64,000 nucleotides of DNA from Pseudomonas sp. B21_DOA. Lineage in GTDB: Bacteria > Pseudomonadota > Gammaproteobacteria > Pseudomonadales > Pseudomonadaceae. A program made the translations under genes and the position numbers. The stretch spans positions 3,286,001-3,350,000 of the forward strand of contig CP086683.1 of NCBI GenBank assembly GCA_030544685.1. Direction: 5' to 3'. Positions 57,968-64,000 of the stretch are shown piece by piece. The notes below the pieces were generated by a model, which had not been told where the DNA came from, searched no databases, and worked only from the letters and a program-made list of their open reading frames with translations. Each line of letters starts with the position of its first letter. Position 1 is the stretch's first letter.

Positions 57968-58333
57968 CTAGCTCGACACGCGTCGGCTGTCGAGCACGCG
58001 ATTGACGATCAGCTCACTCAACATGATCACCTGCTGCAACATCAGCAGCGATCGACGCTGTGGATGGTCGATCACGCCACCGATTTCGCGGGCCATGTCA
58101 TTGGCGGCGGCCAGTGATTCACAGGCTTCGACGAGCAACGTTTCCTCGTCCACCGTGGGATCGATGAGAAAGATCCTGCCCGGCTGGCGCTTGGGAATGG
58201 TGGTCTTGAGCGTCTGAGGGTCGAGGTAAAAGTTGATGGCACGAGCGGCCGCGTCTTTTATTCGCTGGGGTTCCAGAGCGGGGTCGTACGGGATCGAATC
58301 GGCTTCTGGCGGGTTTGGCGTTACTTTGAACAT
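57968..58333 (-). CDS. DUF6124-like small protein, copy 2
   Basis: A complete 121-residue paralogue of the previous gene: MFKVTPNPPEADSIPYDPAL, RIKDAAARAINFYLDP, IFLIDPTVDEETLLVEACESLAAANDMAREIGG, ending VIMLSELIVNRVLDSRRVSS. Tandem duplication with divergence; the first copy likely lies in the same transcript (114 bp gap). Confidence 0.75.
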   Translation of the reverse strand: MFKVTPNPPEADSIPYDPALEPQRIKDAAARAINFYLDPQTLKTTIPKRQPGRIFLIDPTVDEETLLVEACESLAAANDMAREIGGVIDHPQRRSLLMLQQVIMLSELIVNRVLDSRRVSS

Positions 58334-58929
58334 AAATGACTCTCTACCTTGAAGGAATGAAGAGCCGTCACTATCGCTACCAAACGATGGGTGGCGGCCA
58401 CGCGCGGGTTGGTAGACCGGTCAAGATAGTTAACCCCGGCGCTCACGAATGAGCCCCACGCATGGCCACCATAGAGAGCTGAGCCTCGAAATAGAGGCCG
58501 CATATGGGGAAGCCGTACAACTATCAAGAAACGGGCTACCAAACCCGATCACTGTTTTGCAGTGACAGGGAAACGATAAAGCCCAACCGATAGCTGTGTA
58601 AGCCGGCGGATTCTGAAGTACCGGTAGGCAGCGGCGCAAGGCGTTGTAGGCTTTTTGCAGTAACAGTCGGTGTAATTTAAACGTGATTGCCAAGTCGTGT
58701 TTATGCGCTGTACGTGCCTGCTCATCTCACCTTTTCAAAATGTAGGAGACCCGAATCTGTTTAGGCCGATCTCAAGGCCGTTGCGCCGTGGGGCGGAGAC
58801 ATTCAAGCAAGTCGGGTCGTAGACGGGCTTTTGGCTCTTCCACTGTTGGCCGTAGAGAAGCAGAAAAACGCCTCGGCCGGCAGGCGAAAAAATTACCTGC
58901 CAGCACTGGGATCACAAATGACATAGCGC
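58334..58929. other. Gene-free 596-bp leader region with nested hairpin
   Basis: No credible gene. At 58533-58584 GGGCT...AGCCC encloses TCACTG-TTTTG-CAGTGA, a nested stem-loop in the leader of the DUF6124-like pair. The rest (58590-58929) has reading frames without ribosome sites. This may be the promoter and structured 5' leader of the tandem genes. Confidence 0.5.
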
Positions 58930-59267
58930 TTAGTCTGCTTTGAAAACGAACTCAAAACCGATTCCCACAGCTCTCAAGAGCTCGGCCACGCGCTCGAAGA
59001 ACAATTCCCCCGCTCCGAAACCTCGTGCTTGCCGTAAACACGGATGACGAGTGACTTGCCGAGTGCAGCGGGAATCTTGTTATAGATCTCACCGCCTTCG
59101 ATGAAAGCGATGTAGCCGTTTATCTTCCGTTGTAGCGCGAGCAGGTGCTCGGCTTATAGGGTCTTATTGCCCCATTGTAGGTGGTCAGCGATGCCCAGGA
59201 TGATGGTGCCACTGTCCGATTTGGGGATTCCCCACATATCGATAATGTTCGGGTCTGTTAAGGACAC
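58930..59267 (-). pseudogene. Decayed copy of the DUF6572-type immunity gene
   Basis: From GTG 59267 the translation VSLTDPNIIDMWGIPKSDSG, IILGIADHLQWGNKT aligns with the intact immunity protein at 59378-59731 (VVLVITDHLEWGDKAQ). A TAA replaces the glutamine near position 42, and a later G run lacks one base; beyond it ELFFERVAELLRAVGIGFEFVFKAD matches the end of the family. Two independent lesions, including a stop, indicate genuine decay, unlike the other broken genes. Confidence 0.75.
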
Positions 59268-59377: not shown

Positions 59378-59731
59378 CTAGTGTCGAACGGCAAAGTCGT
59401 CCTTCAGCACAAATTCCATTCCGATGCCTACGCCTTTGAGTACCTCGGTCACGCGGTCGATAAAGGTTTCACCTTGCTCAGGCAGCTCATATAAACCATT
59501 GATGCGAATTTTCGGATTCTTGCCCTTGGCTGGCGGATAGCTTTCCAGCAGTTCGCCGCTCTCGATGAAGGCGATGTAGGTGTTGATCTTTTCTTGTAGC
59601 AACAACAGATGTTCGCCCTGTTGGGCTTTGTCGCCCCATTCCAAGTGATCAGTGATGACGAGGACGACATTGTCGGGTTCCCACTCGGGCACTGCGATGA
59701 TGTCGACGACTTTGGTTTCGGTGATGGACAT
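59378..59731 (-). CDS. DUF6572-type immunity protein of the nuclease toxin
   Basis: A 117-residue acidic protein: MSITETKVVDIIAVPEWEPD, VVLVITDHLEWGDKAQQGEHLLLLQEKINTYIAF, and FIDRVTEVLKGVGIGMEFVL. It begins 10 bp after the pyocin-domain nuclease gene. Related DUF6572 proteins occur beside nuclease toxins, so immunity is the natural reading. Confidence 0.75.
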   Translation of the reverse strand: MSITETKVVDIIAVPEWEPDNVVLVITDHLEWGDKAQQGEHLLLLQEKINTYIAFIESGELLESYPPAKGKNPKIRINGLYELPEQGETFIDRVTEVLKGVGIGMEFVLKDDFAVRH

Positions 59732-59741
59732 GTCTGCTCCC

Positions 59742-60941
59742 TCAGAAGGTCGGGTCAGGTCGAATGATGTCGACTCTGGTAGGTGGGATTCGGGTGCCTC
59801 CGGTGAAGCCGGGTTTACCTTTGCCGACGACGGTTGCGCCGGTCTTCTCTATTTCTGGAAAGCCCAGTTTTTGATTGCGCGTCAGTGGCGCTGTTTCAGA
59901 AGATTTGCATTCGACGCAGGAGATGTTGCCGTCCGCATCGCGGCCCATCATATCAATGCGCGTGCGTACACCGCTGTCGGTTTTGACGGTGACCTCACGA
60001 GCGGCTTCAGGTTTGATCTTACTGAATTCGTCAAATGACGCTTCTTCGAACGCTTTACCCTTTTGCTTATTCTTCTCTAGCTGCGTGCTGAGCACGATGT
60101 AGATCGGCTCAAGCCCCGCATCCTCCGGGAACCAGATGATCGCATCCTGGAACTCAGGTGGGTGCGCGGGGTTGGCCAGCAGCGTGTCCGACTGTGGTGT
60201 CGGCGGATAGACCCAGACGGGAGGTAGCTGAGGCGCACCTTCCAGCGCTGGGATTCCCAGAACTCCGTCGAGGCTTGCTCCGGGTGTCCAGGTCAGACCG
60301 ATGCCGTCGCCGATGTCGGCGATGAATTTTTCGCCGTCTTTCTGCGCTTTGATGACCGGTACATTTTCCCAGTCCTTCTTGCCTCCGGTGTAAAAGCCGT
60401 AGGCGTTGACGGAGCCGTCCGGCAACGTTTTCACGTTGACTCGAACGCGCGTTCGGCCGGTTTCTAGCGTGGCGTATTGCTCGTCCTTATAGAAGGCACT
60501 GTCCGGGGCGATGCTGGTGTTGGGCATCAATAGCGCGACGGTGCCCACGGCAGCGCCTGCTGCCATGGCGCCTGCGCCGTCGAGTAGGCCTAGCGCGAGT
60601 GAGCCACCCAGCCGTTGGGCAACGGCACCGCCGGTTGCGGAGCCGCCGACAAACTGGAGGGGCGTGCCTTCGGCCGTAATCGCTGCGCCAGTGGCCAACA
60701 CGGCCCATAGCCCGTAGTCCGCCAGTTTTTCAACGGGGACGAACCCTGTCGGGTTGCTGTGGTTGATTTCGCCGTCGGGCAGGTTGCAGCTTTTGGCGAA
60801 GACGCATCCCTTGAGGTCGGGTTTCGAGTCTGGCGCTGGCGGGAGTTCTTTGTATTGCGCCCAGTGCTGGGCGTTTAGGTCGACGGGTTCGACGCCGGTG
60901 TTGCGGTAACCCTTGGGTGGGTTGGGGACGTAGCCGCTCAA
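59742..60941 (-). CDS. Pyocin_S-domain toxin with PD-(D/E)XK nuclease end
   Basis: A 399-residue protein from TTG 60941 (AAGGA ribosome site 8 bp upstream). It shares with the 34.8-kb toxin the module GCVFAKSCNLPDGEI, the hydrophobic middle and the Pyocin_S domain (about 145-295, ending VWVYPPTPQSD, PAHPPEFQDAIIWFPEDAGLEPIYIVLS). The C-terminal 100 residues differ: D330 in TRIDMMG, E344 and K346 in CVECK, a PD-(D/E)XK site likely cutting DNA. Its immunity gene follows at 59731. Confidence 0.8.
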   Translation of the reverse strand: MSGYVPNPPKGYRNTGVEPVDLNAQHWAQYKELPPAPDSKPDLKGCVFAKSCNLPDGEINHSNPTGFVPVEKLADYGLWAVLATGAAITAEGTPLQFVGGSATGGAVAQRLGGSLALGLLDGAGAMAAGAAVGTVALLMPNTSIAPDSAFYKDEQYATLETGRTRVRVNVKTLPDGSVNAYGFYTGGKKDWENVPVIKAQKDGEKFIADIGDGIGLTWTPGASLDGVLGIPALEGAPQLPPVWVYPPTPQSDTLLANPAHPPEFQDAIIWFPEDAGLEPIYIVLSTQLEKNKQKGKAFEEASFDEFSKIKPEAAREVTVKTDSGVRTRIDMMGRDADGNISCVECKSSETAPLTRNQKLGFPEIEKTGATVVGKGKPGFTGGTRIPPTRVDIIRPDPTF

Positions 60942-61080: not shown

Positions 61081-61368
61081 ATGAGTGCTTATGCTTTCGA
61101 ACTGAAATTGGTATGTGGCGGTTTCGCTTACTTTTCGACCCTCACAATGGGCAGCATGCCAGGTGATGGAGGATTGGAGGTCCGAACGCCGTCATGTGTC
61201 GACAGAGCAAGGTTCGCTACGGCTTTGGCAGATATGGGCTTAAATTATTCATTCGTTCACGACGAGCAGAGTTTTTACGATTGGACTTGTATACAAGGCT
61301 GGGCCATCGCAGACCTTGATTTTGCCAGGACGCACATGAGTCACTGGCTAAAAAACGTGAATGCTTGA
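61081..61368 (+). CDS. Unknown 95-residue protein
   Basis: ATG 61081, 95 residues: AYAFELKLVCGGFAYFSTLTMG, then RARFATALADMGLNYSFVHDEQSFYDW, ending HMSHWLKNVNA. No family recognised. AT-richer than the left part of the window, and divergent from the nuclease toxin. Its stop overlaps the possible start of the HNH gene, so the two may be a transcriptional unit and it could be an immunity or accessory protein. Confidence 0.55.
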   Translation: MSAYAFELKLVCGGFAYFSTLTMGSMPGDGGLEVRTPSCVDRARFATALADMGLNYSFVHDEQSFYDWTCIQGWAIADLDFARTHMSHWLKNVNA

Positions 61369-61754
61369 TCTCACCCTTCGGCTCCTTCACCGACATGAGC
61401 ATCGCGTCCGACTCAATCAGAAAACGCACCTTTAGAGGGAAATTCAAGAAACGTATTTTAGATCGGGACAATAACAAGTGTGTGTTGTGCCCAAGAACTG
61501 ATCAGCTCACTCTACAACACGTCAGGCCCTATTCAGGCGGTGGTGAAACCAGCTTTAGAAACCTAGTTACTTTATGCGAGCCTTGCAATCAAAATATGGG
61601 TGCTGAGAGTTACCGTTTTTTATATGATCTAGCTGGCCTGCGATCCTCGTATGAACCTTCTATGCTGCGTAGCACTAAGTTGAACAAAAATGCGATGATC
61701 AGAGCTGTTCAGCTATCCAGCAATATAATGCACACTCGGTGCGAGCTGTACTGA
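61365..61754 (+). CDS. HNH endonuclease
   Basis: Up to 129 residues from TTG 61365 (overlapping the previous stop) or 119 from ATG 61395. HNH core: KRILDRDNNKCVLCPRTDQLTLQHVRPYSGGGETSFRNLVTLCEPCN, with two zinc CxxC pairs and the H, N and H-equivalent residues present. A small free-standing nuclease in an AT-rich accessory block; substrate unknown. The ATG start is the safer choice by sequence, the TTG by coupling. Confidence 0.75.
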   Translation: MISPFGSFTDMSIASDSIRKRTFRGKFKKRILDRDNNKCVLCPRTDQLTLQHVRPYSGGGETSFRNLVTLCEPCNQNMGAESYRFLYDLAGLRSSYEPSMLRSTKLNKNAMIRAVQLSSNIMHTRCELY

Positions 61755-61907: not shown

Positions 61908-62876
61908 CTATTTAATCTCCCACGGCGGAATGTAATTATCATCTCGGACTTCACTCTCGACTTGACGGGAGTGATACACACCGTCCCCCAGCGAGAGCGA
62001 CTCAAGCTGTCGGATACTCCTGTTGTATGTCTCGGCAAGGGACTTAAAATCATCATCGAGATATGCTGCCTCGCCTAACAAACCACCAAGCTTATACTCT
62101 AGCTGAGTTTTGCTCAGCCCAAAACCGCTGTGCTTGCCTTCAATCGCCAATTTAACTAATCTGATTTTTCTAAACCTGGCGTTGGGGACTTTTAATGCCC
62201 CATCAAAGATCACTGTGCCGGTGATATGTTTAGGCATCTCTGGGCCAAACAGGCGAGTCTTCTTAGCCGCGGTCACATGCCCGTATTTTTTTACTAACTT
62301 CTCAACCTCCCACAATAAACTTCGAGTTATGTGGGGCCCCGAAAAGGTCAGGTCGTCTACATAGCATGTAAAATTAAGGTTTGACCTTTTTGCCAGCGCA
62401 CTTAGCTCATCGAATAAAGGCTTATTGGAGTAATATGAAAGAAGTGGGCTTAGTGGGCTTCCAGTCGGGATGCAGTCATCGCAGGTTACAAGCTCAGAGT
62501 AAAACTTGGCTATATCCCCGGGGCATTCAAGCCGATCCCTGAAAAAATTAAAAACTTGTGATTTCGTAGTGGAGCGAAAAAAACTACTGATATCGAGCGT
62601 AGCTACCATGGTGCCCATCAAGTGGGCTTCAGCATTTTTCTTATAAGAAGTCCCCTTAAGAGCAAATTGCATATATGTGGGAACTTCGACACAACGAAGC
62701 AACTTCAGAATACGCTCGTGAATAGCCAATAATGTGCCTTTTGGCTTTTGCACCCAGCGGCTTTTAGGAGTTTTACCAACATTGAAGGGGTCAACTTTTG
62801 GGGTCATTTCGAAACGCTTGTAGTCACCCACGCTATCAACAATCTGAGCAACAGTAAGAGATAGAATGGTCGCCAT
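61908..62876 (-). CDS. Retron-type reverse transcriptase
   Basis: A 322-residue RNA-directed DNA polymerase. Residues NAEAH (81-85, the retron NAxxH motif), DISSFF (95-100), TGSPLSP (138-144), the catalytic YVDD (172-175) and HITGTVI (VTG-like ITG at 218-220) form the retron set in order. The enzyme would copy an msr-msd RNA into branched ssDNA. It is the third minus-strand gene after a 54-residue basic peptide and an XRE protein; 63 bp separate it from the latter. Confidence 0.85.
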   Translation of the reverse strand: MATILSLTVAQIVDSVGDYKRFEMTPKVDPFNVGKTPKSRWVQKPKGTLLAIHERILKLLRCVEVPTYMQFALKGTSYKKNAEAHLMGTMVATLDISSFFRSTTKSQVFNFFRDRLECPGDIAKFYSELVTCDDCIPTGSPLSPLLSYYSNKPLFDELSALAKRSNLNFTCYVDDLTFSGPHITRSLLWEVEKLVKKYGHVTAAKKTRLFGPEMPKHITGTVIFDGALKVPNARFRKIRLVKLAIEGKHSGFGLSKTQLEYKLGGLLGEAAYLDDDFKSLAETYNRSIRQLESLSLGDGVYHSRQVESEVRDDNYIPPWEIK

Positions 62877-62939
62877 CCTCGATCTTGAGGTGGTTTTGTA
62901 CAGTGCGCTTTGTGATATGTCGTAGGATTTTTTTCTTTC

Positions 62940-63251
62940 TTAGCCTTTTTTACTCGCTTTGGCTTCATTTTTATTTTCAATCCATTCCAGAAGATGAATC
63001 ACTTTTTTAGCCACGCCCACGCGCAATTTATCCGAAGGCTTAGGAGTGTCGAGGTTTTCAGAAAAAAATAATATTGATGACAACGGAATGTCGAAACGGT
63101 AGCTGTATCTTCCCAGCAGTTCGATTGTCGGTTGTTTTTTGCCTGATTCCAGCTCGGAAAGGTGAGAGTTCGAGATTCCCAACTCCTTACTCAGCTCTGT
63201 TTGTGACAGATCGTGGTAGGTTCGAATCAAGCGTAATGCCTGGTTCAGCAT
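62940..63251 (-). CDS. XRE-family helix-turn-helix protein of the retron unit
   Basis: From ATG 63251 (GAGG 8 bp upstream; a TTG at 63278 would add 9 residues) 103 residues: RTYHDLSQTELSKELGISNSHLSELESGKKQP is a clear Cro/C1-type motif, then DIPLSSILFFSENLD and a basic tail (NKNEAKASKKG). Retron operons with a small HTH partner are a known group; the HTH may be effector, antitoxin or repressor. Confidence 0.78.
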   Translation of the reverse strand: MLNQALRLIRTYHDLSQTELSKELGISNSHLSELESGKKQPTIELLGRYSYRFDIPLSSILFFSENLDTPKPSDKLRVGVAKKVIHLLEWIENKNEAKASKKG

Positions 63252-63293
63252 CACAGCATCCTCGTTAGTAAGTGACAACAGCGGGGTTAGGCA

Positions 63294-63458
63294 TTAGAAG
63301 AGCTCACGAAGGTTTTCTAAAAGTTTTGGCCAGTGTTTGTCGATCAGAGCGCACAGAATTCCGACCCAACGTACAACACACATTACCTGCTTCAACCGTT
63401 TAATCATCTTCAGTTTTCTAAAAGCCGGGCGTCGCTTGGCGGGTTTATCAATTTTCAT
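63294..63458 (-). CDS. 54-residue basic/hydrophobic peptide upstream of the HTH gene
   Basis: ATG 63458 encodes 54 residues: a strongly basic start (KIDKPAKRRPAFRKLKMIKR), a hydrophobic stretch (VMCVVRWVGILCALI, about 31-45) and an amphipathic end (DKHWPKLLENLREL). Its stop is 42 bp before the HTH start, on the same strand, in the predicted transcript of the retron. The pattern resembles membrane-active peptides. No database family recognised; ribosome site is weak. Confidence 0.5.
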   Translation of the reverse strand: MKIDKPAKRRPAFRKLKMIKRLKQVMCVVRWVGILCALIDKHWPKLLENLRELF

Positions 63459-63530
63459 GGTGTTATTCCAGTTACCCCTCTCAGAATTTGAGAAGGTCTC
63501 GCATGCAACTGAAACGAAAATTGGAGCAAG

Positions 63531-63722
63531 CAACGCTTTTCCCCTTTCTGAGCACCTGCTTCCGACTCGCACGGAAGCAGTATCCCCGCGTGTCCGGATC
63601 CCTGTGCTGCCGGGTGCCGAATCGCTTGGGAAAGGGTTTAGAGGCAAAGCCTCCACTGGACCGAAGCCCTAACAGCAGCGAGATGATCTCCTTACCGCAA
63701 ATGCAGGCTATCTGAGGCGTTG
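63531..63722 (-). ncRNA. Candidate msr-msd RNA of the retron
   Basis: Gene-free, GC-rich block on the minus strand between the promoter region and the 54-residue gene. Inverted pairs readable by eye: CAACGC/GCGTTG at its outer ends (63717-63722 with 63531-63536; possible a1/a2), GAGGC-TTT-GCCTC (63641-63653, msr-type small hairpin), CCCTTTC/GAAAGGG (63630-63636 with 63542-63548) enclosing CTGCTTCCG-7-CGGAAGCAG (63556-63580), a possible msd stem. A TAGC lies just after the a1 arm, as retrons place the branching G. Outer stem is only 6 bp, so boundaries are tentative. Confidence 0.45.
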
Positions 63723-63738
63723 AAGCAAGTCAAAATAT

Positions 63739-63755
63739 TTTCGCTAATAGCGAAA
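63739..63755. promoter_or_regulatory. 17-bp palindrome upstream of the retron unit
   Basis: TTTCGCTA-A-TAGCGAAA with eight-base arms around one base. It lies in the promoter region of the minus-strand unit, near a TTGACT -35-like element. A likely binding site for the XRE protein. Confidence 0.55.
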
Positions 63756-63832
63756 TAAATACGCTGATTTTTCACCTATCGATTTTGTCGATTACCGTGT
63801 TTGATTAGCTTGTTGGCGCTTGAAGACACTTG

Positions 63833-64000
63833 CTAGGAGAGCTTTCGAGCTTGTTGGTCGAGGTGTGACATTGCCAAATCTAGAATGGCTTGTTCTGTTT
63901 CCGGTTGGAGTGTTCCCCCACTGTCTACGGGCAGATATTGCCGCGCAGGAATGTCGCCCCATAGGTGCGGAAAATCCGCCTGTTTTCCACCAAACTGCAT
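63833..64000 (-). CDS. Phage virion morphogenesis (tail completion) protein, C-terminal fragment
   Basis: The frame runs in from beyond the right edge and ends at TAG 63833-63835; 55 codons are visible: QFGGKQADFPHLWGDIPARQYLPV, then LQPETEQAILDLAMSHLDQQ. The IPAR-(P/Q)(Y/F)LPV pattern before an acidic helix is typical of the Mu gpG/P2 gpS-like family. It points to a prophage continuing to the right, with the retron unit just after this gene. Confidence 0.6.
   Translation of the reverse strand: MQFGGKQADFPHLWGDIPARQYLPVDSGGTLQPETEQAILDLAMSHLDQQARKLS

Follow-up and report, generated by a model that had tools for sequence, protein, structure and literature searches.

Near the end of the window, the whole 64,000-nucleotide stretch of DNA that was analysed, three genes form one unit on the minus strand. 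A small peptide gene (63458-63294) is followed by a gene for an XRE protein (start ATG 63251) and a gene for a reverse transcriptase, RT (62876-61908). All three were found where the initial annotation had placed them, in an AT-rich block on that strand; the G+C content of the retron block is 44-48%, compared to about 60% across most of the window. The 5' limit of the unit is a putative operator/promoter at about 63754-63705. The best PADLOC model for the RT was RT_VI (2e-69, 232 bits; the runner-up model scored 126 bits), and HTH_VI was the best model for the XRE protein (3.5e-37), which supports the retron identity suggested initially. A small auxiliary protein gene upstream of XRE and RT, as in type VI, is present as a 54-aa ORF and is kept in relatives, and a structured non-coding RNA with msr hairpins and a1/a2 arms is seen at family level. 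Judged from these sequence matches the locus is a type VI retron, the class of the RT being assigned by profile and not by tree. The three-part arrangement had not been recognised in the initial annotation. It is the known type VI gene set, which was published by 2021: in the available part of PMC8541194, citing Mestre 2020, type VI consists of an RT, a DNA-binding protein and a small protein. According to that description the gene triad is already known and the locus belongs to a known type; together with the RT_VI and HTH_VI matches, it rules out a new kind of three-gene unit.

Relatives were collected from several sources. Among 398 sampled genomes of the same genus, 8 (own genome included) carried a related RT at E<=1e-20; in one of these, L010, no XRE partner of the HTH_VI family was found. 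The best named relative was P. pisciculturae (L002). RT_VI was matched at E<=1e-30 in 27 of 369 genomes of the same class. Viral contigs yielded no relative when searched with the single RT protein, and 7 loci and 1 locus when searched with alignments; the search of genome contigs gave one locus. Thirty distinct loci had an HTH_VI profile score above 100. The set of 27 loci used below omits L002 and L075, near-duplicates of L004 and L074, and L079, which has no clear start. Loci whose RT was of another type or that lacked an HTH match of this kind (e.g. L010, L052-L068, L080) and L071, with a partial HTH, were not used.

Mu-like genes were observed on the same strand just past the end of the window, namely Portal_Mu, Phage_Mu_F and Phage_tail_S (L091:9833-12769). 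The last 168 bases of the Phage_tail_S gene (L091:9833-10402) are inside the window (63833-64000). This block next to the retron is a Mu-like prophage remnant. Other type VI loci sit in P2-like phages and on plasmids, and inspection by eye revealed no obvious phage gene within 4 kb of the L002 copy. Besides the retron genes, no gene was constant beside the annotated loci (by eye). The retron looks like a neighbour of old prophage remains, with a probable role in phage defence that is put down to its type.

Several other genes and RNAs were noted on the downstream side of the retron. An HNH endonuclease gene (61365-61754, plus strand) is located directly downstream and is convergent. An S-type pyocin protein (Pyocin_S, 399 aa, TTG start) is encoded at 59378-60941 on the minus strand, with a DUF6572 gene downstream, for which an immunity role would be a guess. 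By eye, a short ORF (59154-59267) resembles a fragment of a second pyocin-type gene. Rfam matches to C4 antisense RNA (74 bits) and to its a1/b1 target family (49.6 bits) were obtained at 58387-58579, minus strand, upstream of a DUF6124 gene (57968-58333); an overlapping isrK match was below the gathering score.

The RT (61908-62876, minus strand; PADLOC and alignment of relatives) is 322 aa long as an ORF. The motifs reported in the initial annotation, NAxxH (N81, A82, H85), YVDD (D174, D175) and a VTG-like motif (ITG, T219-G220), were all present and were invariant in 12 aligned RTs. A retron-type RT, by profile and without a tree, agrees with the remaining models: three retron-type NCBIfam models matched at 62-98 bits, below their own cut-offs, and no DGR RT model was among the NCBIfam models matched. 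A group II origin was rejected, as the NCBIfam group II model scored 12.9 bits at a cut-off of 300. The RT is the sole RVT_1 match in its genome. The ORF, starting at ATG 62876, lacks about 30-35 N-terminal residues that are present in relatives. The missing segment lies upstream, open and in another frame, past an A-rich run (62876-62980, minus strand), and is in frame in the L002 and L004 copies. The catalytic motifs are intact and the N-terminal segment is out of frame; the disruption may be a mutation, recoding or a sequence error.

The XRE/HTH protein of the HTH_VI family (62940-63251, minus strand; PADLOC and Pfam) has 103 aa when read from the start common to relatives, ATG 63251, in place of TTG 63278. 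A palindrome, TTCGC-N5-GCGAA, is present as an exact match at 63740-63754 and is a putative operator for this protein. It is the single match in the window, yet of 100 shuffled versions of the window, 22 contained at least one match. Across the loci it is found 88-113 nt upstream of hairpin 2 (described below), exact in 21 of the 27, in 24 with up to one mismatch and in 25 with up to two; it is absent from L015 and L083. A putative promoter was assigned by eye at 63705-63733 on the minus strand, with TTGACT (63733-63728), a 17-nt spacer and TAGCCT (63710-63705), and the start of the RNA is predicted near 63698. The TTGAC element is aligned downstream of the palindrome in 8 close loci; a consensus promoter scan of the window did not call the retron promoter. 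The conserved palindrome above a putative promoter makes the regulatory role that had been suggested for the XRE protein likely, and the protein would probably repress the operon via the palindrome.

The small gene (63294-63458, minus strand) encodes a basic, helical peptide of 54 aa with a charge of +11, a putative toxic effector. Seven relatives, L002 and L004-L009, carry it in the corresponding position; L004-L009 are of the same genus. BLAST of the peptide was weak for L008 (E 0.34) and gave E 0.010 for L009; the ORF is present in both. An absence of both small genes from relatives, which would have spoken against the initial annotation, was not seen, as relatives keep the peptide as well as the XRE gene. 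dN/dS values for the window against L002, L004 and L005 were 0.46, 0.34 and 0.37 over all codons and 0.46, 0.35 and 0.28 when the first 12 codons were removed. The near-identical pair L002/L004 gave 1.21, with only 11 differences. On these codon comparisons the peptide is under purifying selection and is more than a chance ORF. All 30 loci that encode a clear HTH_VI protein have a small ORF directly upstream of the XRE gene; 26 of these ORFs pass a hydrophobicity filter, three more fall below it, and in L079 the peptide frame is open but continues into the XRE gene. The same ORF was present in all eight usable held-out loci (see below). A divergent subgroup, L016-L020, has in five of five cases an ORF of 68-86 aa in the peptide position that by eye is unlike the peptide. 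A hydrophobic C-terminus was noted in several of these small proteins.

The structure predicted from a 6-sequence alignment was one helix, residues 11-53 (mean pLDDT 79, pTM 0.39). Neither PADLOC nor Pfam nor NCBIfam gave a family match to the peptide. Among 5.8 billion proteins, 6 clusters related to it were found, one named 'hypothetical protein' and the rest without a name. A longer peptide, from a 120-aa ORF starting at GTG, was rejected, since the extensions in relatives are in other frames and are not alike as protein. The short start was preferred because the short part and its ATG are common to relatives. It is plausible that the peptide is the effector.

When the region upstream of the XRE gene was aligned, conserved hairpins and blocks appeared. 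All elements are on the minus strand and are given in the order of the predicted RNA. The core of retron arm a1 (GCGG, 63695-63698), placed by leader:CDS pairing across loci, marks the predicted RNA 5' end. A purine-rich GGAGA/AAGAGAGA element after a1, at 63691-63687 in the window, was seen by eye in many loci and may be the holder of the branch G or a decoy ribosome site. The leader motif TCTCGC (63678-63683) is complementary to a motif of hairpin 4, as assigned by cross-locus pairing tests. Two msr-like hairpins were located by a 9-locus alignment. Hairpin 1 (GGGCTTCGGTCC, 63658-63669) has four pairs, two of which are fully kept, one of them changed on both sides, and the other two are 73% paired. 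Hairpin 2 (GTGGAGGCTTTGCCTCTA, 63639-63656) is paired in all cells, with two of seven pairs changed on both sides and five invariant. Hairpin 3 (63556-63580), msd-like and located per locus, carries the loop motif TGCGAG (63571-63566); just 72.8% of its cells are paired in the 9-row alignment, which partly looks shifted there. The 5' arm of a further helix, stem P (GCGTTGCTTG, 63527-63536), was defined by pairing tests and alignment. Hairpin 4 (63469-63511; predicted fold and cross-locus tests) lies ahead of the peptide start and holds the repeated motif GCGAGA (63502-63497) and a purine-rich GAGGGG (63480-63475). Two RNA arms were placed by the pairing tests within the peptide frame itself (63429-63442), namely the a2 core CCGC (63442-63439) and the 3' arm of stem P, CAAGCGACGC (63438-63429). 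Between the peptide stop and the XRE start, an 8-locus alignment revealed a conserved block, CCCCGCTGTTGTCAC (63272-63286), identical in six of the eight loci and with one-base changes in L008 and L009. In consensus folding only, this block can pair with GGGG at 63544-63541. An Rfam scan gave no match inside the retron unit.

In the window itself the hairpins and stem P are clear, and a1:a2 is 4 bp (GCGG:CCGC), whereas L008 has 8 and L009 has 7. The window copy of the retron may be inactive, because a1:a2 is only GCGG:CCGC and the RT frame is disrupted. The a1:a2 helix and stem P cross each other, which may reflect a pseudoknot or alternative states.

The pairings were evaluated across the 27 loci with the best contiguous helix between two windows of one locus as the score, compared with windows swapped between loci (20000 permutations; observed against permuted mean). 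Stem P, its upstream arm against codons 2-21, scored 22.44 against 16.29 (0/20000, n=27), and the control of the same arm with later codons scored 15.33 against 16.08. The contiguous-helix score of the own locus exceeded all cross-locus scores in 5 of 27 loci (mean 22.44 against 16.06); RNAduplex with long windows was uninformative for stem P, the own locus exceeding all others in 0 of 27. Within 9 aligned loci, 93.3% of the stem P cells are paired and 7 of 10 pairs are changed on both sides. Hairpins 1-3 and stem P together had a covariation score of 0.381, compared to 0.197 when shuffled (0/500), and 25 further pair types compared to 22.5 (51/500); slid versions of the same helices were at most 46.2% paired. 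The leader against the coding sequence had been entered first as a control and was found to be positive (84/20000), and therefore a test of a1 was made. Leader a1 against codons 2-11 scored 15.98 compared to 12.41 (0/20000, n=27), with controls of 10707/20000 for later codons and 5227/20000 for the 30 nt before the start.

Further signals connect the leader, hairpin 3 and hairpin 4. The loop motif of hairpin 3 recurs in hairpin 4, next to the ribosome site of the peptide, with a longest shared word of 6.07 nt compared to 4.46 nt (0/20000); the controls gave 700 (loop and coding sequence), 6573 and 8871 of 20000. The leader scored 15.39 against 13.40 with hairpin 4 and 13.85 against 11.83 with the hairpin 3 loop (both 0/20000, n=27), and no pairing signal was seen between the leader and the block after the peptide stop. 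In a reduced (21) and a distant-only (19) subset of loci the RNA signals stayed at 0-3 of 20000, with the exception of leader:hairpin 4, which in wider windows gave 161, 496 and 238 of 20000 for all, reduced and distant loci. In 23 of 27 loci the predicted fold around the peptide start is more stable than the one around the XRE start (p=4.6e-6). Accessibility of the peptide ribosome site was lower than that of the XRE site in 17 of 27 loci, which is not significant (p=0.18), and silencing by structure alone is therefore not supported.

Because the a1 window had been picked after a 75-cell grid scan, and start codons and hairpin 2 (its equivalents in the 27 and the 8 held-out loci included) had been assigned by eye, the tests were repeated on held-out loci. 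Ten records were held out and eight used; L095 begins too near its XRE gene and L101 is without an HTH match. Two pairs of close relatives are among the eight, as are kin of training loci (L092 of L083; L097 and L098 of L088). Relative to the cross-locus mean, a1:CDS scored 19.31 against 12.51 (8/20000, n=8), stem P 18.88 against 15.72 (1/20000, n=8) and leader:hairpin 4 15.12 against 12.90 (356/20000, n=8). L096 yielded no hairpin 3, which leaves n=7 for the repeated motif (5.86 against 4.09, 27/20000) and for the pairing of the leader with the hairpin 3 loop; the latter was not replicated (9673/20000). Three controls were flat.

Retron RNAs form a helix between a 5' arm, a1, and a 3' arm, a2, and the stretch immediately before a2 serves as the template of the RT. 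Since the partner of a1 was found in the first peptide codons, the template position would be that of the peptide start codon and ribosome site, and the start region of the peptide would occupy the place of the msd in other retrons. The preferred reading, to which we give a probability of about 0.6 on the strength of these patterns, is a type VI retron in which template RNA and toxin message would be one hybrid RNA, reverse transcription serving as the antitoxin. A single transcript would start just upstream of the leader and run through the msr-like hairpins and the hairpin domain into the peptide, XRE and RT genes. With a1 of the leader paired to a2 in the first peptide codons, priming by the RT would occur close to a1, the start region would be copied, and the RNA already copied would be degraded by RNase H. 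Loss of the start of the message would be the expected outcome of copying, because retron RT termination, like retron phage defence, depends on host RNase H1 according to the accessible part of PMC8989520. Reverse transcription would act as antitoxin since copying would destroy or mask the peptide start region. The particular claim that a2 of type VI lies inside the toxin gene, that the toxin message is the RT template, and that copying uses up the toxin start region and silences the message is one that we hold to be evenly balanced. The motif repeated in hairpins 3 and 4 implies that a DNA copy of hairpin 3 would be able to base-pair with hairpin 4, and this RT-DNA might also act in trans as antisense DNA on further copies of the message. 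The XRE protein would repress the operon at TTCGC-N5-GCGAA. The peptide would be released when a phage blocks the RT, breaks down the RT-DNA or interferes with the repressor, and the freed peptide, possibly a membrane-active or helical toxin, would abort the infection.

A classical retron could also be considered, in which the RNA ends before the peptide gene, a complex of RT, ncRNA and RT-DNA inactivates the peptide, and the pairings with the coding sequence are translational control. Sequestration of the effector by RT, ncRNA and RT-DNA is stated for retrons generally in the part of PMC12548924 consulted, and a peptide as basic as this one (+11) could bind nucleic acid. However, across the family the upstream RNA pairs with two distinct arms in the first codons, which a stand-alone ncRNA does not predict, and we regard this explanation as unlikely. 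It is quite improbable that the locus is a toxin-antitoxin pair with an RT attached, the XRE protein binding and neutralising the peptide. The leader, hairpins and coding pairings would be left without explanation, and the divergent subgroup keeps the XRE/RT pair with a small protein that looks unrelated by eye, although the palindrome suits an autorepressing antitoxin and HipB-type XRE antitoxins appear as weak NCBIfam matches, below cut-off. The peptide, given its lack of a family match, might instead be an RT accessory or membrane anchor and the true effector be elsewhere or absent, but this is very improbable, with no other gene constant beside the loci and the peptide start region wired into the RNA.

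For the hybrid RNA in which copying would silence the toxin, the pairings predict a start of the RT-DNA, codons that double as RNA arms, an XRE palindrome, and toxicity when the RT is dead. If true, reverse transcription can serve as gene silencing in bacterial immunity, in a defence switch that silences a message by copying it into DNA, and any editing tool built on a type VI RT would need part of the toxin gene as template. A literature search, with most subscription papers and preprints outside its scope, found no account of the RNA or mechanism of type VI retrons. A hybrid RNA of type VI retrons is reportedly the subject of a 2025 preprint; if this is right, part of the present reading is already known.

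The closest known system is the type VI retron itself (Mestre 2020, via the available part of PMC8541194 and PADLOC names), with the same RT_VI, HTH_VI and small upstream gene on one strand. The gene content differs in no respect, whereas the RNA architecture found here was not seen described in those sources. Shewanella phage vB_SspS_MuM16-1 (L085) has the same peptide ORF, of 48 aa, and the same XRE, RT, palindrome and stem P. There too a Phage_tail_S gene precedes the retron, the two being separated by one further annotated gene, but that retron belongs to a phage genome and not to a remnant, and the two RTs are 33% identical. The proposed control at mRNA level of a small basic/hydrophobic peptide resembles type I toxin-antitoxin systems, in which a small hydrophobic toxin is controlled by an antisense RNA; the regulator proposed here would be reverse-transcribed DNA together with removal of the template, and not a separate RNA. 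The msr-msd of the Retron Eco1 type shares the 5' arm, short msr hairpins, template and 3' arm, and differs in that the 3' arm predicted here lies inside a protein-coding frame.
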